Positions 18,456 to 60,831 of a stretch of DNA of 64,000 nucleotides are shown here, in pieces. Under the pieces are notes generated by a model. The model was not told the DNA's origin. It worked only from the letters and a program-made list of their open reading frames with translations, and made no database searches. Every line of letters begins with the position of its first letter. The first letter of the stretch is position 1. This DNA is from Myxococcales bacterium (GTDB taxonomy: Bacteria; Myxococcota; Myxococcia; Myxococcales; JAJYLH01), in contig JAJYLH010000028.1 in the NCBI GenBank assembly GCA_021787845.1, forward strand, positions 1 through 64,000. The letters are read 5' to 3'. Position numbers and translations under genes: made by a program.

Positions 18456-18625
18456 CTGAGAGGGTGTGGCCAAAACAACCGGCAGGCGGCAGGCCTCACC
18501 CGCTCGTCCCGAGCGCAATCGAGGGGCGAGCAGGTCAGGCCGGAGCGTGGCGCTCATCCCTCGAATGCGCTCGGGATGAGCGGATCTTCTCCCAGCGCGT
18601 CGATCTCTTGGCCACACCCTCTCAG
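18456..18625. repeat. 170-bp element with perfect 18-bp terminal inverted repeats
   Basis: CTGAGAGGGTGTGGCCAA at 18456-18473 is repeated as its exact reverse complement at 18608-18625. Between them lies a complete CGCTCATCC-family repeat (18500-18583). The right-hand terminal repeat contains the stop codon of the dsrE2-like gene (18622-18624). It has no coding capacity and looks like a MITE-like element that has a second repeat nested in it. Confidence 0.88.
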
Positions 18626-19098
18626 ATGAACATGTTCAGGTTCGCCTGGTCGGCGGCGCCGAGGTAGGTGCCGACGCCGGCGAGCTCGATGCCGTCGATC
18701 AGCTCCTCCTTCTTGATGCCCATCACGTCCATCGTCATGGTGCAGGCGATGAGCTTGATTCCCTGCTCGCGGGCGGTGTCCATCAGCTTCTGGAGCGACA
18801 TCACGTTGTGCTTCTTCATCGCGCTCTTCATCATCGCCGTGCCCATGCCGCCCATGTTCATCTTCGACAGCACCACCTTGTCCGGCCCGCGCGGCATCAT
18901 CCAGCCGAACATCTTTTCCATGAACGTCTTCTTCACCGCCACGCCCTCGGGCTTGCGCAGGAGGTTCAACGCCCAGAAGGTGAAGAACATCGTCACCTCG
19001 TCGCCCATCGCCGCGGCCCCGTTCGCGATGATGAACGCCGCCATCGCCCGGTCCAGGTCGTTCGAGAAAACGATCAGCGTCTTCTTCGTGGTGTCCAT
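18622..19098 (-). CDS. DsrE2-type sulfur-carrier protein
   Basis: This 158-residue protein of the DsrE/DsrF-like family, DsrE2 branch (DrsE_2 domain), has the N-terminal strand LIVFSNDLDRAMAAFIIANG and the Met-rich middle (MGGMGTAMMKS). The single conserved Cys119 (KLIACTMTMDVMGI) is the residue that carries persulfide sulfur in the family. In sulfur oxidisers DsrE2 receives or donates sulfur to TusA; here TusA lies at the other end of the same-strand cluster. A strong AAGGAG precedes the ATG at 19098. The stop codon lies inside the terminal repeat of the 170-bp element. Confidence 0.88.
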   Translation of the reverse strand: MDTTKKTLIVFSNDLDRAMAAFIIANGAAAMGDEVTMFFTFWALNLLRKPEGVAVKKTFMEKMFGWMMPRGPDKVVLSKMNMGGMGTAMMKSAMKKHNVMSLQKLMDTAREQGIKLIACTMTMDVMGIKKEELIDGIELAGVGTYLGAADQANLNMFI

Positions 19099-19145
19099 GG
19101 TGGTTCTCCTTGTCTCTCCTCGGCGGTCACGCCGCCGGAATCTCG

Positions 19146-19320
19146 TTGGAGCCGGACACGTGAGTGTCCGGGTTGGACACGGCCCGCAAACGAGGATTGT
19201 AGGGCGGGGGCTTGTCCCCCGCCGTTCGGGGCGCCGCCAGCATGCGGCCGGGGACAAGCCCCCGCCCCACGGTGCTTGATGTCCCTACCTGCACCCGGAC
19301 GCTCACGTGTCCGGCTCCAA
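19146..19320. repeat. 175-bp inverted-repeat element (CCGGACAC family)
   Basis: The ends TTGGAGCCGGACACGTGAG (19146) and its inverse (to 19320) match the element at 1976-2165. The internal TAGGGCGGGGGCTTGTCC hairpin pair is shared as well. It fills the whole gap between the QmoC-like stop (19324) and the DsrE2 start region. It therefore forms a strong stem-loop block in the transcript and may act as a terminator, processing site or stability element. Confidence 0.85.
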
Positions 19321-19323
19321 TTC

Positions 19324-20484
19324 TCATCCTGGTCCCGCTTCCTTTTCCTTTCCGCGCGCGACGAAGAACAGCGCCACCGGCCGGTAAATCGCGTGGGCGA
19401 ACTTCGTGAACGGCAACAGCAACATCAGCTCCATCGCGATGGACACGTGAACGAGGAACACCCAATAGCCCCACGCCGGCGCGTGCGGAAGGTACAGCGC
19501 GAGCTCGATGCCGAAGCCCGTGACGCCGGTGATCCACAAGAGCGTCAGGAGCAGCCAGTCCGCGAAGGTGGAGTCGCTCGCCGAGCGGTTCGCCTTCCGG
19601 AGGCGATCGACGATGAGCATCGTGGTGCCGTAGATCAGAGCGAGCCCGGCGAGCGTTCCCAAAAGGCGGACCGGATACCAGATGGGGACCTCGGCGCCCG
19701 TCGGTTTGACGTGGATCAGCGCGAGCCCGTAGTCGATAATCGTCGCCGCGAAGAGACCGAGGAAACCCCACATGGTCATCGCGTGGATGAGCCAGCGCTT
19801 GCGGTACCAGGGCGAAGCCTCTTGCGCGGTCTGGCAGTCGGAGCGGTAGCGCTTCTGGCCCAGCGACTCGGTCCAGAGCGCGCTCCACCATGCCTTGCCC
19901 GCGCCGCGGCCGACGACGCTTCCGAGCGACAGTCCTTCCTTCTTGGCGATGCTGCGCGCCGCCGAGAGGATGCCGGCGAGCCCCGCGAGGCCGACGAGGG
20001 CCATCACCGCGACGCCGGTGTAGTGGATCAGCGGCTCGGGGATGAAGTCGAAGAGCTTGAGCGCGCTCGCGTGCTGCGGCCCATGCTCGCGGTACATGAA
20101 GAGGGCGAAGAACGCCGCGAGGACGAGGGCGATCAGGGTTCCCAGCACGGGCTTGGTGTACATCGTCTTTGCGAGCCGGGTCTTGTCGTAGCTCGCGATG
20201 GCGTAGCGGCGCGCGGCGGCCATGAAGCCGCCCGGGTCCGCCTGCGTCGGGCAGGTGTCCGAGCATTCACCGCAGTAGAAGCAGGTCCAGAGCTCCTTGC
20301 TCGAGAGCAGCGCGTCCTTCATGCCGACTTGCGCGTAGCGAATGAGCCGGCGCGGGAAGGTGCCGTCGTTCGACGACAGCGGGCACATCGCGGTACACTG
20401 ACCGCAACTGAAGCAGGCGGAGACGTCGGCGGCCCCGAACCGCTTCACGTCGTCGATGAGTCCGACATCCACGAGCGCGCTCAT
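19324..20484 (-). CDS. QmoC-like membrane subunit (HdrC-ferredoxin fused to cytochrome b)
   Basis: This 386-residue protein has an N-terminal HdrC-like ferredoxin part with two 4Fe-4S motifs (CFSCGQCTAMCP and CFYCGECSDTCP). It is followed by about six hydrophobic segments of a NarI/HdrE-type cytochrome b domain. This layout is that of QmoC, which passes electrons between the Qmo/Hdr complex and menaquinone. Candidate haem His residues lie in the helices (LIHYTGVAVM, WLIHAMTMWG, FLVHVSIAME). The ATG at 20484 overlaps the stop of the upstream small gene (ATGA). It is probably the membrane anchor for the HdrA proteins encoded just upstream. Confidence 0.88.
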   Translation of the reverse strand: MSALVDVGLIDDVKRFGAADVSACFSCGQCTAMCPLSSNDGTFPRRLIRYAQVGMKDALLSSKELWTCFYCGECSDTCPTQADPGGFMAAARRYAIASYDKTRLAKTMYTKPVLGTLIALVLAAFFALFMYREHGPQHASALKLFDFIPEPLIHYTGVAVMALVGLAGLAGILSAARSIAKKEGLSLGSVVGRGAGKAWWSALWTESLGQKRYRSDCQTAQEASPWYRKRWLIHAMTMWGFLGLFAATIIDYGLALIHVKPTGAEVPIWYPVRLLGTLAGLALIYGTTMLIVDRLRKANRSASDSTFADWLLLTLLWITGVTGFGIELALYLPHAPAWGYWVFLVHVSIAMELMLLLPFTKFAHAIYRPVALFFVARGKEKEAGPG

Positions 20485-20720
20485 GAGCGCACCTCCGGCG
20501 CGCCGTAACGGAAGTAGCCGTCCGTCGCTTCTTTCGACTCTTTGAGCTTCCCGTAACGGCGCATGCCCATTACCCAGAAGACCACCTCGTCCGCCGGGCG
20601 GCTGATGGCGGTCGCGATTTCCGGGATCGTCATCGGTCCCAGCTTGACCGCGGCCAGGATTTCCCGCTGCATCACCGGCTCTTCGCGGATCACTTCCCGG
20701 ATGTCCCGAATGGTGTTCAT
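20481..20720 (-). CDS. Small winged-helix-like protein of the Hdr/Qmo cluster
   Basis: This 79-residue protein has a segment that looks like a helix-turn-helix (MTIPEIATAISRPADEVVFW) followed by VMGMRRYGKLKES and the tail GYFRYG. It is translationally coupled to the QmoC-like gene by an ATGA overlap. Small proteins of this shape are often found directly before QmoC/HdrC genes, where they are more likely an accessory or structural factor than a DNA-binding regulator; its role is unknown. GGGAG precedes the ATG at 20720. Confidence 0.75.
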   Translation of the reverse strand: MNTIRDIREVIREEPVMQREILAAVKLGPMTIPEIATAISRPADEVVFWVMGMRRYGKLKESKEATDGYFRYGAPEVRS

Positions 20721-20762
20721 GCAAACTCCCGTCTAAAGTACCTACTCTTGCGGAGCGAAAAA

Positions 20763-20842
20763 CCGCTCGTCCTGAGCGTAGTCGAAGGGCGAGCGGTCTT
20801 TCGCGGGGGCGCTCATCCTTCGACTGCGCTCAGGATGAGCGG
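20763..20842. repeat. Repeat of the CGCTCATCCCGAGCGC family
   Basis: This is a full 80-bp copy with arms CCGCTCGTCCTGAGCG and its inverse. A further half arm lies at 20851-20867. It separates the HdrA2 gene (stop at 20903) from the small winged-helix-like gene within what otherwise looks like one operon. Confidence 0.8.
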
Positions 20843-20902
20843 AAGGGAAACGCTCAGGATGAGCGGAGTGGGTTGTCGCCGCGTGTCTCGAGAAGTGCTG
20901 CC

Positions 20903-22654
20903 TCATGCCGCTTTCTCCTCGAGCATGCCGTCGATGGCCGCGCGAATCTGCGCGTCGGTGTAGCCCTTCAAGTCGATGGCGTTCTCCGGGCAGGCGGGCG
21001 CGCATCCGCCGCAGCCCTTGCAGGTCGACGCACTGATCTCCGCGACCTCGCGCCCGTCGGCCGCGACCTTGGCGATGGCCGAGTAGGGGCAGACCTCGAC
21101 GCACTTGCCGCACCAGGTGCAGGCGCTGGCGTTGACGGTCGCGACCAGCGGGTCCAGCTCGGCGAAGCCCTTCTTCAGAATCGCCGCGCTCTGGGTCACC
21201 GCTGCCAGGCCCGAGGCCACCGACTCCGATGCGCTCTTCGGACCCTGGCAGGCGCCGGCGATCAACACGCCGTCGACCACCGTCTCCACCGGCCGCAGCT
21301 TCGGGTGAATCTCGTTGAAGAAGCCGTCGGTGCCGACCGGCACCTTGAGCAGCGTCATCAGCTCGTTGTTCTTGCGCGGCACCATCCCGGTCACCAGCAC
21401 CACGAGGTCGGCCGGAATCGTCAGCTCCTCGCCGCCGGTCAGCGTGTCGCGGGTGGTGACCTTCAGCTTGCCATCATCGCCCAGCGCGACCACCGGCGGC
21501 GCGTCGTCCGCGAACTTCATGTAGACCGCGCCGCTCTCGCGCGAGTCGGTGTACATGAGCTCGAACTTCCCGTAGGTGCGGATGTCGCGATAGAGATGGT
21601 ACTGATGCACGCCTGGCTCCGGCGGGGGACGAGCCCCCGCCCTACCGAGCTCGGCGACCCTCAGCGAGGCGTGCGCGGTGGCGGCGCAGCAGAAGCGGGA
21701 GCAGTACTCGTGTCCGCTCGGCTGCCGGCTACCGACGCAGTAGATGTAGGCGATGGTCTTGACCCGCTTGCCGCGGTAGGTCAGTGGCCCCGGCGAGGCA
21801 TCGATCATCGCTTTGAACTCGGGGAGCGTGACCACGCCGTCGGTGCCGAAGCCGAACTCGCCCGGCTCGGGTTGGTAGGTGTCGAAGCCGGTCGCGACGA
21901 CGATGGAGCCGACGTCGACCTGCAGCTCCTTGGCCGGCGTCTCATCGAGGCGAACCGTCGCCACGTAGTTGCCGAAGCTGCCGGACTTCGCGACCAGCTC
22001 GGCGTTGGTGTAGACCGTGATTGCGGGCCGCTTCTGGATTTCGGCCACCAGCGCGGCGATGAGATCGGTGCCCTTGCGGTTGCGGGCGTACATCGCGCCG
22101 AACTGGCCCACCCAGCCGCCGAGCTTCTTCTCGCGCTCGACCAGGAACACCTGCAGCCCCACGTCGGCGAGCCCGATGGCCGCGCGCAGGCCCGCAATTC
22201 CTGCGCCGACGACCATCGCTTTTTGCGTGGTCTGGACCACCATCGGCTCCAGCGGCACCGACAGGCGGCTGCGCGCGATGCCGGCCTTGACGAGACCGGT
22301 CGCCTTGAGCGTCGCGCCCTCGTGGTTGTCGGTGTGCGCCCAGGAGCACTGCTCGCGGATGTTGACCTGGTTGTACGTGTAGGGGTTCAGGCCCGCGCGC
22401 TTGGCGACGCCGCGGAAGGTCGTCGTGTGCAGCTTGGGCGAGCACGACGCGACCACCAGCCCGTCGAGCTTCTGCTCCTTGATGTCGGCCGCCATCTCCT
22501 GCTGCGTGGCGTCGGAGCACGCGAACATCGTGTGCTTGGCGACCACCACTCCGGGCGCGCCCTGGACGGTGCCGACCACCCGCTCCACGTCCACGTAGTC
22601 CGAGATGTTTCCGCCGCAGTGGCAGACGTAAACGCCGATTCGCCGCTCGCTCAT
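20903..22654 (-). CDS. HdrA-like FAD/iron-sulfur subunit (HdrA2, QmoA/QmoB-like)
   Basis: This 583-residue HdrA-family flavoprotein should hold FAD and several iron-sulfur clusters and move electrons within a heterodisulfide-reductase-like complex. An N-terminal HdrA segment (RIGVYVCHCGGNISDYVDV) leads to the FAD-binding motif VVGAGIAGLRAAIGLADVG with the downstream KKLGGWVGQFG. The Cys region YCVGSRQPSGHEYCSRFCC follows, and two C-terminal ferredoxin motifs (CTWCGKCVEVCP, CKGCGGCAPACP) close the protein. A 16-residue insert (VAELGRAGARPPPEPG) interrupts the conserved stretch between TAHASLR and VHQYHLYRDIRTYGK. It is encoded by a dispersed palindrome. The ATG overlaps the stop of the HdrA-GltD gene (ATGA). 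Confidence 0.9.
   Translation of the reverse strand: MSERRIGVYVCHCGGNISDYVDVERVVGTVQGAPGVVVAKHTMFACSDATQQEMAADIKEQKLDGLVVASCSPKLHTTTFRGVAKRAGLNPYTYNQVNIREQCSWAHTDNHEGATLKATGLVKAGIARSRLSVPLEPMVVQTTQKAMVVGAGIAGLRAAIGLADVGLQVFLVEREKKLGGWVGQFGAMYARNRKGTDLIAALVAEIQKRPAITVYTNAELVAKSGSFGNYVATVRLDETPAKELQVDVGSIVVATGFDTYQPEPGEFGFGTDGVVTLPEFKAMIDASPGPLTYRGKRVKTIAYIYCVGSRQPSGHEYCSRFCCAATAHASLRVAELGRAGARPPPEPGVHQYHLYRDIRTYGKFELMYTDSRESGAVYMKFADDAPPVVALGDDGKLKVTTRDTLTGGEELTIPADLVVLVTGMVPRKNNELMTLLKVPVGTDGFFNEIHPKLRPVETVVDGVLIAGACQGPKSASESVASGLAAVTQSAAILKKGFAELDPLVATVNASACTWCGKCVEVCPYSAIAKVAADGREVAEISASTCKGCGGCAPACPENAIDLKGYTDAQIRAAIDGMLEEKAA
21615..21660. repeat. Intergenic-type palindrome inserted in frame inside HdrA2
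   Basis: The core GGCGGGGGACGAGCCCCCGC (21621-21640) is a hairpin with 8-bp arms. It belongs to the TAGGGCGGGGGCTTGTCC family seen in the elements at 1976-2165 and 19146-19320. Here it is read through as about 16 codons without stop, between two conserved HdrA segments. Confidence 0.8.
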
Positions 22655-25386
22655 GCCAGCACCTTCATTTTCGCCTGCGTGGTTTCCCGTTGCGCTTGGG
22701 CCTGCTCTTCCAAATGCGCCGCGACCTGCGCCGCCGCCGCGCCGGCGTGGAGGATGGAGTCCACGATGTCCTTCGCGCCCGACGCGGTTCCGGCCACGAA
22801 AACGCCCGGGATGTTCGTCCGACCCGGGTTCAGGTCCTCGTCCAGCTCGGCCACGTAGGAGTAGTCGTCGAGCGCGAGCTTCTCCTCGGGGAAGAGCCCG
22901 ACCGGATCCTTGTTCGGCTGCACGCCGACCGCCAGGACCACGAGGTCGTACTCGGCCTCGACCAGGTTGCCGCCGTTCTCGATGTCTTCGTAACGCACGA
23001 CGAGGTTGCCGTCGTCCTTCTCGGAAATCTTCGCGACCCGGCCCTTGACGTACGTCGCGCCCATCGACTTCGCCTGGTCGTAGAACTCCTCGTAGCGCTT
23101 GCCCGCCGCGCGGATGTCCATGTAGTGGACCGTGACGTCGGCCAGCGGCAGGGCTCCCATGATGAGCTGGTTCTGCTTCACCGAATACATGCAGCAGAAC
23201 TTGGAGCACAGTGGGTTGTCGACGGTCTTGTCCCGCGAGCCCGTACACATGATGTACGCGATGCGCTCCGGCACCTTGCCGTCACCCGGCCGGAGGATGG
23301 TGTTGAACGGCCGCGTCGGCGCGAGGAGCCGGTCCATCTGCATCGCGGTGATGACGTTGGGGTACTTGCCGAACCCGTACTGCGGCTTCAGGTCCGCGGC
23401 GAAGAGCTTGTAGCCCGTGGACACGACCACCGCGCCGACCTCGACCTCCTGCTTCTTCTCTTTCATGTCGAGATGAATCGCGTCGGCCGGGCAGGTCTCG
23501 ACGCACTGGCCACACTCGGAGCAGACGCCGCAGTCGAGGCAGCCCCCCGAACCGGCTCGCGCCTCCGCTTCGGTCATCGGCGGCTCGATTTCCGCGAAGT
23601 CTTGCGGATGCGCCGACAGCGGGAGGCTCAGCTTGATCACCTTACGCGGCGTGTAGCTCTTCTGCCGCGCCAGGACCTGCGACTTGTCCATCACCCCGAG
23701 CCGGTCGTCGATGCCTTCGAAGGCGCCGAGCTCGAGGCCTCGCAGGTAACGGTCGATCATGTACGCCGCGCGGTTTCCCTTGCCGACCGCCGTCGCGATG
23801 GACGTCGGCCCATCGACCGCGTCGCCCGCCGCGAAGACCCAGGGCAACGACGTTTGCAGCGTCTGCGGATTCGCTTGCAGCGCCCGCGATCCGTTCGGCG
23901 CGAGCTTCGGGAAGGCCGCGGTGTCGACCCCCATGCCGATCGCGACAATCGCCAGGTCGCAACGGATGCTCTGGCGATCACTGTCGTCGTATTGCGGCCG
24001 GAACTTGTGCTCCGCGTCGAAGACCGCCGTGCAGCGCTTGAGGTCCACCGCTTCGACCTCGAGGTTCCCGGTGAAGCCGGCGATGCCCCATCCGTCGTGG
24101 AGCTGCACGCTTTCGTCGAGCGCTTCCTTGACCTCCCAGGTGTGCGCCGGCATCTCGCCGCGCCGCTCCAGGCAAATCTGGTGTACCGCGGTCGCTCCCA
24201 GCCTCTGCGCGCTGCGGGCCGCGTCGATGGCCACGTTGCCGCCGCCGATGACCGCGACCGTCTTGCCTGCGAGGTTCGGCTTCGCGCCCAGCTTGATGTC
24301 GCGCAGGAAGCTCAGAGCGCTCTGCACACCCGCGAGATCCTCGCCATCGACGCGCAGCTTCGCCGAGCTCGGCGTGCCCGTCGCCACGCAGACCGCATCG
24401 AAACCGTCGCTGCGCAGCTTGTCGAGGTCGGTCACTCGCGTGCTCGTCGCAATCTCCACCCCCAGCGCCGTCACGTTGGCGATGTCGCGCTCGAGCGCCT
24501 CGACCGGCAGCCGGTACGAAGGTATCGACAGTCGCATCGCGCCGCCCGGCTGGGGCTCCGCTTCGAATATCTTGACGCCATAGCCCTGGCGCGCGAGCTG
24601 CCACGCCGCGGTCAAGCCCGCCGGCCCGGAACCGATGATCGCCACCCGCTTCCCGTTCGCCTGCGGCCGGTCGACGTTCGGAAGATCCTTGCGCCCGTAG
24701 TGCGTGTCCGCCGCGAACCGCTTCAGCCGGCGGATGGGAATCGGCGCCTCGAGCTCGCCGCGGGTACACTGATCTTCGCACGGCGCGTAGCAGGCCCGGC
24801 CGAGCGTCGCGACCAGCGGCGTCACGTCGGCCACGCGCTGGAAGGCCTCTTCGTACTTGCCCGAGCGGATGAGCGACACGTAGCCGTGCGTCTTGATGCC
24901 CGCCGGGCAGGTGTTGGTGCAGGGCGAGGTGCCTTGGCGCTCGATGACCGCTTTCTTCGGCACCGCCTGCGGGAACGGGATGTACGCCGCGCGCCGGGCG
25001 ACCAGGTCCGCGTTGAACTGGTCGGGCACCGCGACCGTGCAGGCCGTTTCGCACTGCTGGCAGCCGGTGCAGGCGGCCTCGTCGACGTAGCGCGCCTTCT
25101 GGCGTACCTGGACGTGGAAGCGGCCGTTCTTGTCGCGCCGGATGCCGTCCACCTCGCCGTAGGTCATCGCCGTGATGTTCGGATGATGGATGGTCGAGGC
25201 CATCTTCGGCGTGGAGATGCAGCTCGCGCAGTCCAAGGTCGGGAAGACCTTGCTCAGAAGGATCATCCGGCCGCCGACGCTGCCCTCGCGCTCGACCAGC
25301 AGGACCTTGTAGCCCATGTCGCCGAGCTTCAGCGCCGACTCCATCCCGCCGATGCCGCTTCCGACCACCAGAACGTCGTAGTCCAT
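22651..25386 (-). CDS. HdrA-like protein with an embedded GltD (NAD(P)H:FAD) module
   Basis: This is a 911-residue fusion. The first ~60 residues are an HdrA/QmoA FAD motif (VLVVGSGIGGMESALKLGD), with TLDCASC shortly after, then a cluster motif CTGCQQCETAC near 105. Next comes a complete GltD/NADPH-GOGAT-small-subunit-like module: its Cys-rich N part (CTNTCPAGIKTHGY, CYAPCEDQC), FAD motif VAIIGSGPAGLTAAWQL, NAD(P) motif VAVIGGGNVAIDAARSA and AAGDAVDGPTSIATAV. After it the HdrA fold resumes (CLDCGVCSECGQCVETCP, YIMCTGSRDKTVDNPLCSKF). Such a chain can take electrons directly from NAD(P)H, or reduce NAD(P)+, inside an Hdr/Qmo complex. Its ATG overlaps the MvhD-like stop by TGATG. Confidence 0.9.
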   Translation of the reverse strand: MDYDVLVVGSGIGGMESALKLGDMGYKVLLVEREGSVGGRMILLSKVFPTLDCASCISTPKMASTIHHPNITAMTYGEVDGIRRDKNGRFHVQVRQKARYVDEAACTGCQQCETACTVAVPDQFNADLVARRAAYIPFPQAVPKKAVIERQGTSPCTNTCPAGIKTHGYVSLIRSGKYEEAFQRVADVTPLVATLGRACYAPCEDQCTRGELEAPIPIRRLKRFAADTHYGRKDLPNVDRPQANGKRVAIIGSGPAGLTAAWQLARQGYGVKIFEAEPQPGGAMRLSIPSYRLPVEALERDIANVTALGVEIATSTRVTDLDKLRSDGFDAVCVATGTPSSAKLRVDGEDLAGVQSALSFLRDIKLGAKPNLAGKTVAVIGGGNVAIDAARSAQRLGATAVHQICLERRGEMPAHTWEVKEALDESVQLHDGWGIAGFTGNLEVEAVDLKRCTAVFDAEHKFRPQYDDSDRQSIRCDLAIVAIGMGVDTAAFPKLAPNGSRALQANPQTLQTSLPWVFAAGDAVDGPTSIATAVGKGNRAAYMIDRYLRGLELGAFEGIDDRLGVMDKSQVLARQKSYTPRKVIKLSLPLSAHPQDFAEIEPPMTEAEARAGSGGCLDCGVCSECGQCVETCPADAIHLDMKEKKQEVEVGAVVVSTGYKLFAADLKPQYGFGKYPNVITAMQMDRLLAPTRPFNTILRPGDGKVPERIAYIMCTGSRDKTVDNPLCSKFCCMYSVKQNQLIMGALPLADVTVHYMDIRAAGKRYEEFYDQAKSMGATYVKGRVAKISEKDDGNLVVRYEDIENGGNLVEAEYDLVVLAVGVQPNKDPVGLFPEEKLALDDYSYVAELDEDLNPGRTNIPGVFVAGTASGAKDIVDSILHAGAAAAQVAAHLEEQAQAQRETTQAKMKVLA

Positions 25387-25814
25387 CACTTCGCTCCCGA
25401 TGCGTTCAGGCCCGCGAGAATGCCCGAGAAGCTCTCCATGTGCTTGGCGAACGGCTCCGCGCAGACCGAGCAGATGGCGGCCATCTTCACCCGCTGCGGG
25501 TCCTTGCCCGACTTCTTCAGAAGCTCCTGCGCCTCTTGCACGATGCCCGAAGCGCGGTGGCTGCAGTCGGGGAGATACGCGCACTCGTCGCCGTCGGACG
25601 CGATGAACACGCCGTCGTAGCCGCGCTCGATGGCGTGGGCGATCCAGCCTGGGCGGATGCCGCTCGTGCAAGGAACGCTGATCACCTGCACCCCGGTCGA
25701 GTAGTGCCGGTGCTGGCTCCCCGCGAGGTCGATGCCCGGGTCCGAGATGTTGTGCGTCGAGAAGACCAGTATCCGCGGCACCGGTTTCGATGGGTTTGCG
25801 CCGACCGAGCTCAT
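25386..25814 (-). CDS. MvhD-like [2Fe-2S] subunit
   Basis: This 142-residue protein of the MvhD family (methyl-viologen-reducing hydrogenase delta) transfers electrons to HdrA in methanogens and is fused to QmoB in sulfate reducers. Cysteines at about 49, 78, 84, 115 and 118 fall in the family places (VPCTSGIRPG, DGDECAYLPDCSHR, ICSVCAE). The gene is directly upstream of, and one base overlapping with, the HdrA-GltD gene. The Mvh hydrogenase subunits themselves are absent, so its donor is more likely the GltD module than hydrogen. The ATG at 25814 has GGAGAG upstream. Confidence 0.87.
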   Translation of the reverse strand: MSSVGANPSKPVPRILVFSTHNISDPGIDLAGSQHRHYSTGVQVISVPCTSGIRPGWIAHAIERGYDGVFIASDGDECAYLPDCSHRASGIVQEAQELLKKSGKDPQRVKMAAICSVCAEPFAKHMESFSGILAGLNASGAK

Positions 25815-25881
25815 GACAGATCTCTCCTGTGCAACCGAAGTTGGACCAGTAGTGCCGGCCTTCCGGCCCGGCATGCCGACT

Positions 25882-25977
25882 TGTGGCACAGGCATCCCCG
25901 CCCGTGGAGTCCCAGCAGGCCTCCCCTGGCGTGGTTGCGTCGACCAAGCCTCCACGGGCGAGGACGCCCGTGCCACG
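25882..25977. repeat. Inverted repeat of the GGGCGTCCTCGCCCGT family
   Basis: The arms GTGGCACAGGCATCCCCGCC and, inverted, CACGGGCGAGGACGCCCGTG bound a 96-bp block related to 4115-4182. It lies in the 417-bp gap between the TusA-like and MvhD-like genes. Confidence 0.78.
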
Positions 25978-26032
25978 GAAGAAAGAACTGGCGCTGTCTG
26001 CCTGTCCGGATCAAGCGCGCAGGATGGGTGGG

Positions 26033-26193
26033 CCGCTCATCCCGAGCGCAGTCGAGGGACGAGCGGCGAGCAACGGTGCCACGTCGTGCCGAATGCGTCG
26101 GCTGTTCCCGTACCCGGACACTCACGTGTCCGGCTCCATCCTACGAATTGCTTGGTGGGCCGCTCATCCCGAGCGCAGTCGAGGGACGAGCGG
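26033..26193. repeat. Cluster of three partial dispersed repeats
   Basis: Two half copies of the CGCTCATCCCGAGCGC family (26033-26066 and 26160-26193) flank one end of the CCGGACACTCACGTGTCC family (26112-26138). The cluster fills the rest of the gap downstream of the TusA-like gene; no coding content. Confidence 0.78.
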
Positions 26194-26231
26194 CGAGCAC
26201 CCCGGACGAAGAAGGTACGGACCGGCCTGCG

Positions 26232-26504
26232 CTACTTCGCGCGGCGCACGAACACGCGCTCGTAGCCCTGGGCGGCGAGCGTGCCGAGGAACGCGTGGCC
26301 CATCTTGTTGGACCAGGCGCTGACGTCGGTCTTGGTGCCGGGGTCGCTCGACCACAGCTCGATGACGCCGCCGACGGGCACCTTGCCCACGACCTTCTTG
26401 GCCTCGAGCAGCGGCCCCGGGCAGGCGGCGCCGCGGGCGTCGACCACCTTGGCGTCGGTGATGGCGTTCAGATCGGTCTCGGAAAGCATGGCAGCGGCGG
26501 GCAT
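26232..26504 (-). CDS. tusA: TusA-like sulfur-carrier protein
   Basis: This 90-residue TusA/SirA-family protein has the hallmark CPGPLLEAKK, with Cys28 the persulfide-bearing residue. The rest of the small two-layer fold follows (VGGVIELWSSDPGTKTDVSA). TusA carries sulfane sulfur between rhodaneses, DsrE-type proteins and acceptors. It is the first gene of the minus-strand Hdr/Qmo cluster, and DsrE2, its usual partner, is the last. GAGGAGG seven bases before the ATG at 26504 supports the start. Confidence 0.93.
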   Translation of the reverse strand: MPAAAMLSETDLNAITDAKVVDARGAACPGPLLEAKKVVGKVPVGGVIELWSSDPGTKTDVSAWSNKMGHAFLGTLAAQGYERVFVRRAK

Positions 26505-31137: not shown

Positions 31138-31240
31138 GGAGCGCAAACGATCGCGCGACCGGCTGTCCGTCGTTCCAGAGCGATCGCAGGTGGAACGTCG
31201 GATCCCGAGCGCTCTGGAATGTCGGACGGCCGCCCGCCGC
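31098..31240. repeat. Composite repeat of the GTAGGATGGACAGTCC family
   Basis: This copy shares AGTAGGATGGACAGTCC, GGCTGTCCGTC and the CGATCG / GCTCTGGAA motifs with the blocks at 14070 and 16440. It overlaps the 3' end of the MauE-like gene and abuts the 28-bp array. Confidence 0.7.
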
Positions 31241-31242
31241 GC

Positions 31243-31490
31243 CTACTGGCGCGCGGCCGGACCGTCCAACCTACTGGCGCGCGGCCGGACCGTCCAACCT
31301 ACTGGCGCGCGGCCGGACCGTCCAACCTACTGGCGCGCGGCCGGACCGTCCAACCCACTGGCGCGGGGCCAGACAATCTGACCGACTGGCGCGCGGCCGG
31401 ACCGTCCAACCCACTGGCGCGGGGCCAGACAATCTGACCGACTGGCGCGCGGCCGGACCGTCCAACCTACTGGCGCGGGGCCGGACCTCC
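31243..31490. repeat. 28-bp tandem repeat, nine copies
   Basis: Units CTACTGGCGCGCGGCCGGAC start at 31243, 31271, 31299, 31327, 31355, 31383, 31411, 31439 and 31467, exactly 28 bases apart. Two variants alternate in the second half (one ends CCGTCCAAC, the other AGACAATCTGAC), so the array shows a higher-order 56-bp pattern between 31355 and 31466. There are no spacers between units, so it is not a CRISPR array. Confidence 0.93.
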
Positions 31491-58269: not shown

Positions 58270-60831
58270 ATGCGCCGCCGACTCGCCAGCGTCGCGGTTC
58301 GTCTGCGCCGTCACTGGCCGGTCGTCGGCCTTTGCCTCGCCCTGATCCTCGGTCTGTCGCTTTGGGGCTTCGGGCGCTCGCTCCGGCGCGGTCTGAGCCC
58401 GTTGCACACGTCGCGACTCATCCTCGACCGCCGCGGCCGCTATCTCGGGGAGGTACCGAGCTCCCAAGGGCTGCTGGGGGAATGGCCGACGCCGTACGTG
58501 CTGCCCGACAAGGTCTTGCGCGCCACGCTCGAGGCCGAGGATCGCCACTTCTTCCACCACGACGGCATCTACTGGCCTTCGGTCTTGCGGGCGTCCTGGC
58601 AAGATCTGACGAGCGGGCGCATCGTCAGTGGCGCTTCGACCATCGCGATGCAGGTCGCGCGGCTGCAATGGCCGATTCGCGGCAACCGCTTCTGGCACAA
58701 AGCGCAAGAGGCGGTGGAAGCGGTGCTGCTCGTTCACGACTTCGGTCACGAGCGGGTGCTCCGGCAGTACCTGGCGCTCGCGCCGTACGGCAATCGCGTG
58801 CGCGGCGTCGTGCGGGCGGCGCGGCTGTACTTCGACGAGCCGGTCGAGGACTTGACCTGGGCCCAGGCGGCGCTGCTCGCGGGCTTGCCGCAGGCGCCCG
58901 GGCGGATGGACCCGTTCCATCCCGCCGGGCTCAGGCGCGCGCTCGCGCGGTCGCATCGGATCTTGCGCGCGCTGCGCGCCGACGGATTTCTCACCGCTGA
59001 CGACCTGCGACACGCCCTGCACGACTCGCTCGGGCTCGTCCAAAGGCCGCATCGGGTGCCCGACGCGATGCACGTGATCCTTTTGCTCTCGCAACGCGCG
59101 CGCTCGCTTCATCAGACGATTCTGCGTTCGACGATCGACCTCGACATCCAGCGCGCGGCCGCTCATGCGTTGAAGACGGAGCTTGCCAACCTCGCGGCGG
59201 ACGACGCGGGAAACGGCGCGGTGCTGGTGGTCGATCCAGCGACCGGCGAGGTTCTCGCGCACGTCGGCTCGGCGAACTACTTCGACCAGGCGCATCACGG
59301 CGCCATCGACTACACGACGACCCGGCGCTCGCCCGGGTCGGCGCTCAAGCCGTTCATCTACGGTCTCGCGTTGGAGAAGGGTCCGTGGACCGCAGCGAGC
59401 GAGTTGCCAGACACGCCGGTCGAGTATCCGCTCGACGGTGACGGCGGCGCGTACGTGCCCGAGGACTTCAATCGCGCGTTCCTGGGACCGATGCTCCTGC
59501 GGGAGGCGCTCGCGAACTCGCGCAACATTCCGGCGCTGCGAGTCTTGTCCGATGTCGGCGTCGAGCCCGCGCTCCAATTTTTCCAGAAGGCGGGCGTGCA
59601 AGGCATCACGTTCGACCCGGCGAAATACGGGCTGTCGCTCGCCATCGGCGGCCTCGGCGTGACGCTGCACGAGCTCGTCACGATGTACACCGCCATCGCC
59701 GATCAGGGCGTCGAGCACCAGCTACAGTACTTCCTGCCAGGACCTCGCTCCTGTCCAAAACAGCATCCGTGCCCGAGCGCAGAACCGCTCATCCCGAGCG
59801 CCGTCGAGGGACGAGCGGTTCTGCGCGGCGGCGCCCGTCCCTCGACTGCGCTCGGGATGAGCGGAAATCTCCGATGCGGCGGACATCGGACAGCAGTGGC
59901 GGGACCGACCGTGCCTGCCGTCCGCCTCTTCTCTTCGGAAACCGCCAACCTCTTGCGCGACATCCTGAGCGACCCGGAAGCGCGGCGGCCCTCGTTCCGG
60001 CCGGGCGACGCGCTGGATTTTCCGTTCGCCGTCGCTGAGAAGACCGGCACCAGCCAGGGCCATCGCGACACCTGGGTCGCCGCGTTCAGCGATCGGTTGC
60101 TCGTCGGCGTCTGGATTGGCAATGCCGAAGGGCTCCCGATGGGCGAATTGACCGGGTCCAGCTCCGCGGCGGTGGTGATGCACGATGTCATGAAGACAGT
60201 GATGCCGACGCTCGCGCCCTACCGCGCCATCGCCTCCACCTTCGGGGTCCCTCCGGGTTTTGTCACCCGCACCATCTGCCCGCTCTCGGGCCTGCTCGCC
60301 GGACCAGACTGTCCAGATCGGAAGGTAGAGATCTTTGCGCCCGGCACCCAGCCGACCGAGCATTGCTCTTGGCATCATCCGGTCGCCCTCGACCTCCGCA
60401 ACGGCCTGCGCGCCGGGCCCGGCTGCCCGAAGCGGTTCCTCGTCCGCCGCCCGATGCTCGACCTGCCGCCGGTCTTCGACACCTGGGCCCGCCTGCACCA
60501 CGTCGCCATCGCGCCCCATGCCTACAGCCCGCTTTGCCCGTCGTCCCCGCACGACCTCGAGGCGAGCGTGCGCATCATCTCGCCGCAACCGCGCGCGCAC
60601 TACTTGTGGGATCCGGACACCCCGGCCGACGCGGCCGGCATCCGCCTCGCGGCCAACGTCACCCCCGCCGGCGAAAGGGTCGTCTGGATTGTCGATGGCG
60701 CCCCCATCGGCGAATCCCGCTGGCCCGACGCGATGAGCTGGTCGCCGACGCCCGGCCGGCACACCATCGTCGCCGCCCTCGCCGACGGCCTCGGCATGTC
60801 GACTCCGGTCACCGTCACCGTCGACAACTGA
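58270..60831 (+). CDS. pbpC: Penicillin-binding protein 1C with in-frame repeat insertion
   Basis: This 853-residue bifunctional peptidoglycan synthase has an N-terminal membrane helix (about 17-37). The GT51 glycosyltransferase domain has the catalytic Glu in LEAEDRHFFHHDGIYW and GASTIAMQVARL. The transpeptidase has Ser357-x-x-Lys360 (SPGSALKPF), SRN in LANSRNIPAL and KTGT at about 591-594 (AEKTGTSQGH). A C-terminal PBP1C-specific domain starts near VRIISPQPRAHY. Between the transpeptidase motifs, residues of roughly 491-552 are foreign: they include PLIPSAVEGRA and ARPSTALGMSG, the translation of a dispersed repeat. The gene follows A2M by three bases, the classic pairing. Confidence 0.94.
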   Translation: MRRRLASVAVRLRRHWPVVGLCLALILGLSLWGFGRSLRRGLSPLHTSRLILDRRGRYLGEVPSSQGLLGEWPTPYVLPDKVLRATLEAEDRHFFHHDGIYWPSVLRASWQDLTSGRIVSGASTIAMQVARLQWPIRGNRFWHKAQEAVEAVLLVHDFGHERVLRQYLALAPYGNRVRGVVRAARLYFDEPVEDLTWAQAALLAGLPQAPGRMDPFHPAGLRRALARSHRILRALRADGFLTADDLRHALHDSLGLVQRPHRVPDAMHVILLLSQRARSLHQTILRSTIDLDIQRAAAHALKTELANLAADDAGNGAVLVVDPATGEVLAHVGSANYFDQAHHGAIDYTTTRRSPGSALKPFIYGLALEKGPWTAASELPDTPVEYPLDGDGGAYVPEDFNRAFLGPMLLREALANSRNIPALRVLSDVGVEPALQFFQKAGVQGITFDPAKYGLSLAIGGLGVTLHELVTMYTAIADQGVEHQLQYFLPGPRSCPKQHPCPSAEPLIPSAVEGRAVLRGGARPSTALGMSGNLRCGGHRTAVAGPTVPAVRLFSSETANLLRDILSDPEARRPSFRPGDALDFPFAVAEKTGTSQGHRDTWVAAFSDRLLVGVWIGNAEGLPMGELTGSSSAAVVMHDVMKTVMPTLAPYRAIASTFGVPPGFVTRTICPLSGLLAGPDCPDRKVEIFAPGTQPTEHCSWHHPVALDLRNGLRAGPGCPKRFLVRRPMLDLPPVFDTWARLHHVAIAPHAYSPLCPSSPHDLEASVRIISPQPRAHYLWDPDTPADAAGIRLAANVTPAGERVVWIVDGAPIGESRWPDAMSWSPTPGRHTIVAALADGLGMSTPVTVTVDN
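59785..59864. repeat. CGCTCATCC-family repeat inserted in frame inside pbpC
   Basis: This 80-bp block has arms CCGCTCATCCCGAGCGC and its inverse, flanked by a further inverted pair (GCGCAGAACCGC / GCGGTTCTGCGC at the inner side). It matches the intergenic copies at 20763-20842 and 18500-18583. Here it is translated without a stop inside the transpeptidase domain. Confidence 0.88.

Follow-up and report, generated by a model that had tools for sequence, protein, structure and literature searches.

A Qmo-like gene block containing an HdrL-type HdrA-GltD fusion and linked to TusA and DsrE2 in a myxococcal genome

The DNA analysed here (the window, 64,000 nucleotides of contig JAJYLH010000028.1 from a Myxococcales bacterium, GCA_021787845.1) contains a block of seven intact genes, all on the minus strand between positions 26504 and 18622. 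In this order, they encode TusA, MvhD, an HdrA-GltD fusion, a second HdrA-type protein (HdrA2), a winged-helix protein, QmoC and DsrE2. These identities had been proposed in a first-pass annotation and were borne out by matches to Pfam and NCBI models and, for the winged-helix protein, by an AlphaFold2 model; they also lend support to the predicted combination of NAD(P)H, quinone and sulfur-carrier components. Overlaps of 1–4 bases join MvhD to HdrA-GltD, HdrA-GltD to HdrA2, and the winged-helix gene to QmoC (4 bp in the last case). Spacers separate HdrA2 from the winged-helix gene, QmoC from DsrE2 (this one bearing repeats) and TusA from MvhD; the last spans 417 bp and holds two kinds of genome-specific dispersed repeats (26027–26192; repA at 26027 and 26154, repB at 26107). 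An FtsK gene lies to the right of the block on the opposite strand. We recognised no sulfur-related neighbours of the block among the called genes of the window, and no gene for HdrB, DsrAB, AprAB or a lipoate-binding protein within its 64 kb. The first-pass annotation had stated this absence and had considered that HdrB, DsrAB or ApsAB might lie just outside the block in an ordinary Qmo or Dsr operon; nothing of that kind was recognised beside it.

The absence does not extend to the genome. Contig C153 of the host carries a canonical sulfate-reduction set at C153:65020-106996, comprising Sat, QmoC, QmoB, QmoA, AprA and AprB (locus L115) and DsrMK(JOP-type), DsrC, DsrN, DsrL, DsrD, DsrB and DsrA (loci L116 and L117); these gene names were read from the sequences together with NIR_SIR and CCG matches. 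Because the canonical set is located there, the window block represents a second, divergent Qmo-type set. A set resembling the canonical genes of C153 was also seen in genome G057 (L126), and apr, qmo and sat genes in G214 (L151).

The HdrA-GltD fusion (22651–25386, minus strand, 911 aa) is composed of a QmoA/HdrA shell (residues 1–148 and 617–900) interrupted by a GltD/NfnB/DsrL-like module (23539–24939, minus strand, residues 150–616; NF009410/PRK12771, 443 bits over 145–651). Residues 5–162 and 623–841 of the fusion match residues 7–166 and 155–374 of the host's own QmoA with 33–39% identity, and residues 144–632 match the host's own DsrL with 34% identity; the module also matches Nfn and GltD chains in the PDB. 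When compared with the methanogen HdrA structure (PDB 5ODC), the two halves of the fusion stop at residue 288 and restart at residue 289, so that the NAD(P)H module sits as a precise insert within the ferredoxin loop. Judged from these alignments, the fusion is a flavo-iron-sulfur protein of QmoA/HdrA type into which an NAD(P)H dehydrogenase module, featuring an FAD site, a Rossmann fold and iron-sulfur motifs, has been inserted. The fusion lacks the N- and C-terminal ferredoxin parts of HdrA, both of which are carried by HdrA2.

HdrA2 (20903–22654, minus strand, 583 aa) contains an N-terminal domain, an FAD domain without the inserted ferredoxin and two C-terminal [4Fe-4S] motifs. Its residues 5–566 align with residues 3–592 of the host's own QmoB (28% identity), and MvhD (25386–25814, minus strand, 142 aa; an MvhD/FlpD iron-sulfur protein, PF02662, 93 bits) aligns with residues 613–717 of the same protein, which correspond to the C-terminal part of QmoB. 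HdrA2 and MvhD together accordingly amount to a split QmoB. Since HdrA2 has no ferredoxin loop but possesses the N-terminal domain and the ferredoxin motifs at the C-terminus, it and the fusion complement each other as QmoA and QmoB do. QmoC (19324–20484, minus strand, 386 aa) combines an HdrC-like ferredoxin part with approximately six hydrophobic helices and aligns along its whole length with the canonical QmoC of the host (28% identity); its match to NF038018 (203 bits) is under the 300-bit cut-off of that model. Cluster-binding residues are well preserved, with eight QmoC cysteines invariant in 33/33 homologues, five MvhD cysteines invariant in 60/60, and nearly all HdrA cluster cysteines invariant.

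The winged-helix protein (20481–20720, minus strand, 79 aa) contains no cysteine and gave no Pfam match; its fold was assigned from an AlphaFold2 model (pLDDT 89) with matches to winged-helix structures. A profile of this protein finds the C-terminus of HdrA2 in nine Bacteroidota loci (E ~2e-10 to 4e-7), and because of this fusion the protein is probably a structural subunit of the predicted complex. The fusion likewise disfavours a role as a plain transcription regulator. We also considered homology with DsrD, which is of similar size (79 versus 81 aa), and profile comparison gave no match.

TusA (26232–26504, minus strand, 90 aa; PF01206, 64 bits) carries Cys28 in a CPGP motif, and this residue is invariant in 60/60 homologues. 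DsrE2 (18622–19098, minus strand, 158 aa; PF13686, 221 bits; NF047629, 102 bits) is a sulfurtransferase-like protein without a predicted membrane segment that matches PDB 3PNX over its full length (118 bits) and has Cys119 invariant in 50/50 homologues. Two further TusA genes are found elsewhere in the host genome; one (G000:C95:8266-8493, L119) directly follows genes resembling gcvH-gcvPA-gcvPB of the glycine cleavage system.

To trace the block in other organisms, the fusion was used as the sole query and the content of the flanks was then counted. This search returned 63 database loci of the TusA-linked clade, which by record label belong to six phyla (25 Actinomycetota, 20 Bacillota, 10 Bacteroidota, 6 Chloroflexota, 1 Pseudomonadota and 1 Armatimonadota), where the labels of single metagenome-assembled genomes (MAGs) may be incorrect. 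Genes for TusA and MvhD lie upstream of the fusion in 53/53 loci with enough flank. Among the 34 loci with wide flanks, all contain HdrA2, 29 have DsrE2 in the vicinity (upstream in 24, downstream in 5) and 27 have a free winged-helix gene, the other seven being Bacteroidota. This recurrence is far beyond chance. The gene order is therefore kept in relatives, as the first-pass annotation had asked; its question of whether TusA and DsrE2 always accompany the GltD-fused HdrA is answered positively for TusA and only in part for DsrE2. The composition, domain plan, linkage and residue conservation of the block are thus shown by the sequences.

Several loci encode additional DsrE-family proteins (clusters 29 and 31). 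A DsrE-like protein of ~137 aa lies beside the block in L010, L011, L014, L017, L019, L020, L024, L036 and L066, which come from Bacillota and related MAGs; the copy scanned, from L024, gave no Pfam match and contains the motif HIHVCATAGKIWGA. These linkages bear on the reading in which the complex is a general NAD(P)H:menaquinone (or ferredoxin) oxidoreductase and TusA and DsrE2 do a separate job, for instance in thiolation, the supply of sulfur for cofactors or the sensing of redox state. TusA also serves in housekeeping sulfur relay, and similar core redox parts are found in other HdrL and Hdr sets that have no TusA (L149). The constancy of TusA, the frequency of DsrE2 and the extra DsrE-family genes nevertheless argue for a functional link, and the two other TusA genes of the host could cover other tasks, so that we regard this reading as improbable.

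The composition of the block varies in some relatives. In ~12 loci, namely those of Desulfofundulus, other Bacillota, one Actinomycetota and one labelled Armatimonadota, QmoC is swapped for a 100-aa HdrC and a ~320-aa HdrB, in which the C-terminal CCG site is intact and the N-terminal site is lost. An exchange between QmoC and HdrBC is known for Qmo itself (PMC4136832, PMC10504309). Regulators of ArsR, CsoR or Crp-like type adjoin some loci, which would be compatible with control by sulfur or redox state. DsrC is added in one Bacteroidota locus, and TauE and rhodanese-type genes are found near a single locus. In a Bacteroidales MAG (L043:10065-15092), a second Hdr-like operon comes after the block and encodes HdrC, an HdrB-like protein, an HdrA of 340 aa, another HdrC and a membrane HdrD-like protein of 612 aa. 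In a Chloroflexota MAG (L008:11028-14156), four 2-oxoacid:ferredoxin oxidoreductase-like genes follow QmoC on the same strand.

We then compared the block with systems already described. Its likeness to QmoABC extends to the QmoA- and QmoB-type HdrA proteins, the MvhD-type domain, QmoC and the QmoC/HdrBC exchange (PMC10504309, PMC4136832), with each canonical subunit represented by full-length yet divergent homologous sequence. The window set differs in having an NAD(P)H module within its QmoA-type subunit, a split QmoB and a probable extra winged-helix subunit, and in being linked to TusA and DsrE2 rather than AprAB. A single clade (100/99) unites the shells of the TusA-linked fusions, separate from canonical QmoA (100/100) and from five other HdrL-like proteins, relative to which its branching order is weak. 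The inserted module is homologous to DsrL, which serves DsrAB as an NAD(P)H oxidoreductase (PMC7596348), but is embedded here in a QmoA-type protein.

Canonical Qmo is linked to AprAB, and the host has its aprAB beside the other Qmo. The possibility that the window block is an accessory or replacement Qmo for AprAB/DsrAB sulfate reduction in this host is raised by the host's Sat, AprAB and DsrABCDLMK genes and by Desulfofundulus, which has both kinds of set. DsrA and AprA scored above cut-offs in the same 3 of the 49 host genomes, including two of Desulfofundulus; the remaining 46 lack both, which MAG incompleteness is unlikely to explain. The usual partner of the block is therefore not Apr or Dsr, and a DsrAB/AprAB link was rejected as its general function, in agreement with the independence from these systems assumed at the outset. 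Given also the canonical QmoABC already present beside aprAB, an accessory role in this host is very unlikely.

Qmo sets in organisms without Dsr/Apr have been reported as ‘type II’, with an unclear role (PMC10504309). These sets are closer to HdrA than to type I QmoAB and occur without Dsr/Apr; the strong matches of the window set to HdrA models and chains, and its occurrence mostly in hosts without Dsr/Apr, would fit this description. The fusion itself belongs to a kind already named. HdrL, a fusion of HdrA and glutamate synthase found with MvhD in Desulfobacterium autotrophicum, has been proposed to conduct NADH-fed electron transfer in sulfur metabolism (PMC2702500). Like HdrL, the window protein is an HdrA with a GltD/NADH module and, throughout the loci with enough flank, an adjoining mvhD. 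It differs in the absence of N- and C-terminal ferredoxin parts, in its separate clade and in its linkage to TusA/DsrE2 and QmoC.

The sHdr systems of Hyphomicrobium, Acidithiobacillus and Sulfobacillus also place TusA- and DsrE-type carriers beside Hdr subunits. The window block lacks sHdrB1/B2, LbpA and a lipoate ligase, and has instead the GltD module, MvhD and QmoC. No sHdrB with CCG sites is present in the window, and the CCG proteins of the host belong to other kinds and are larger, at 396–698 aa in the gene calls. LbpA and its ligase were not recognised by eye among the called genes of the window, no genome-wide search having been made; GcvH was seen solely in the glycine-cleavage operon of the host genome. 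The earlier expectation that the set would differ from both known systems fails with respect to the Qmo plan, as the core subunits map one-to-one on QmoA with an insert, split QmoB and QmoC. The block also differs from HdrABC-MvhAGD, as the window has no HdrB and the HdrC+HdrB variant does not keep two CCG sites. The YTD cluster of sulfur disproportionators (PMC12998232) shares TusA and a DsrE-family protein with the block, which contains an Hdr/Qmo complex and no recognised YedE or YTD conserved hypothetical genes.

The pyridine-nucleotide-binding subdomain of the fusion (23977–24276, minus strand, residues 371–470) occurs in three states in our motif table of 59 homologues. Most relatives have a YRR motif, which in DsrL-2 has been interpreted as being of NADP(H) type (PMC7596348), and on this account NADPH is favoured as donor. 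The window copy, most HdrB-type relatives and one Bacteroidota copy have CLE or SLE with an acidic residue, a state that is possibly NAD(H)-type. In six Propionibacteriaceae copies (L035, L038, L039, L054, L057 and L070), the NAD(P) site is broken, the binding motifs being lost (GGDVVA, AEA/AEP/AQA) while the remainder of the block is kept. The window subdomain is ~40% identical to that of L004, compared with 87% in the shell, and ~60% identical to those of HdrB-type relatives, with which the window module also groups in the tree (support 0.999). We conclude that the NAD(P)H module of the window was probably exchanged.

Based on the one-to-one mapping on the host's own QmoABC and DsrL, the constancy of TusA and MvhD beside the fusion, the conserved cluster and carrier cysteines and the absence of DsrA and AprA from most hosts, we favour, with modest confidence, a reading of the block as an electron-transfer complex of Qmo type that has been adapted to sulfane sulfur bound to proteins and would carry out NAD(P)H- and menaquinone-linked redox chemistry on TusA and DsrE2. 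QmoC supplies the membrane part, and TusA and DsrE2, with their intact cysteines, would act as the carriers. NAD(P)H and menaquinone would exchange electrons with TusA-S-SH and DsrE2-S-SH persulfides along a path formed by the flavins and iron-sulfur clusters of the two HdrA proteins. The persulfides may dock at a site equivalent to that of AprAB on canonical Qmo, and the winged-helix protein may sit at the HdrA2/QmoC side. In the soluble variant, HdrC and HdrB with its one remaining CCG site would take the place of QmoC. Complex formation, quinone use, the persulfide substrate and the direction of the reaction are what we infer. For the direction, we lean only slightly to reduction, in which NAD(P)H and/or menaquinol would convert the sulfane sulfur on the carriers to sulfide, over oxidation, as the NADP-type sites point to the former, and TauE and the usual oxidative role of TusA/DsrE to the latter.

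Several observations weigh against this reading. The sulfur reaction is suggested solely by gene linkage, and in the QmoC variant, which lacks HdrB, no site that could handle disulfides is recognised. The TauE gene beside a single locus is also compatible with oxidation, with sulfite as the product. Finally, not all members use NAD(P)H, to judge from the CLE motif of the window copy in place of YRR and from the six broken sites.

The foremost alternative is an sHdr-like oxidation, in which sulfane sulfur on TusA/DsrE2 would be converted towards sulfite and electrons passed to menaquinone and NAD(P)+. The HdrA parts match PDB 6TJR, which we take to be sHdrA, and the TauE and rhodanese-type genes fit this direction. 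Both TusA and DsrE proteins have been associated with the sHdr oxidation pathway (PMC4378227, PMC6067878). Counting against it are the absence of an HdrB-type subunit from the QmoC variant and of any ~300-aa CCG protein from the host genome, the lack of a lipoate-binding protein in the block, and the NADP-type motif of most relatives, which is tied to NADPH as donor in sulfite reducers, though some oxidisers carry it (PMC7596348). We consider this alternative unlikely. Somewhat less probable again is a flavin-based bifurcating or confurcating sulfane-sulfur oxidoreductase. Because carrier-bound sulfane sulfur (around -0.27 V) lies between menaquinone and NAD(P)H, NAD(P)H and menaquinol could jointly reduce it, or its oxidation could drive both. 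Such an enzyme would constitute a third cytoplasmic sulfur energy route beside Dsr and sHdr, in several phyla mostly without dsr.

To return to the favoured Qmo-type complex for carrier-bound sulfur, both of its known relations, an HdrL-like fusion and a Qmo-like complex, were already described, and the linkage to TusA/DsrE2 is apparently undescribed. In the open literature searched, which excluded subscription journals and preprints, we found no description of the TusA/DsrE2-linked block and no paper that brings together TusA, DsrE2, HdrA and QmoC; HdrL and TusA were co-mentioned only in PMC12142623, in passages that do not contain this block. The block would thus represent a sulfur-linked redox complex that is conserved in Actinomycetota, Bacillota, Chloroflexota, Bacteroidota and Myxococcota and apparently has no name so far. 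The majority of its carriers lack dsr and apr and would be scored as lacking that kind of dissimilatory sulfur metabolism. Type II Qmo-like complexes would gain a testable substrate, the TusA/DsrE2 persulfide, and a testable electron partner, NAD(P)H.

The host genome (6.24 Mb, 98% complete) is smaller than the 9–13 Mb reached by members of its order, and the genome set searched contained no other member of its family. We found no intact copy of the set in 98 other genomes of the order and, among 194 further Myxococcota genomes, no highly identical QmoC of the window kind, from which horizontal acquisition of the block is likely. The nearest shell is from a Chloroflexota MAG (86%). A second Myxococcota genome from another family (G154) encodes TusA, the fusion (55%), HdrA2 (55%) and the winged-helix gene, with a QmoC closer to the canonical kind. 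The scarcity of the set in the order and its nearest relatives among Chloroflexota and Bacillota MAGs could also point to a mis-binned contig or an assembly artefact. Contamination is disfavoured by the flanking FtsK, whose best match is myxococcal (60% over 665 aa, G001; up to 71% over shorter stretches elsewhere), by G154, and by the genome-specific repeats of the block spacers: repA also occurs on C153 and C28 and repB on C153, and neither was detected in the relatives' loci scanned. An artefact is thus hardly credible. Plasmid carriage was likewise considered, and no match was obtained in the plasmid collection at E<=1e-150.

The two families of short dispersed intergenic repeats occur in the window at 26027–26192, 19152–19314, 18551, 8388 and 59779–59832. 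Separately, the region 31219–31437 contains an apparent intergenic tandem repeat, read as RPDRPTYWRAAGPSN-like repeated peptides.

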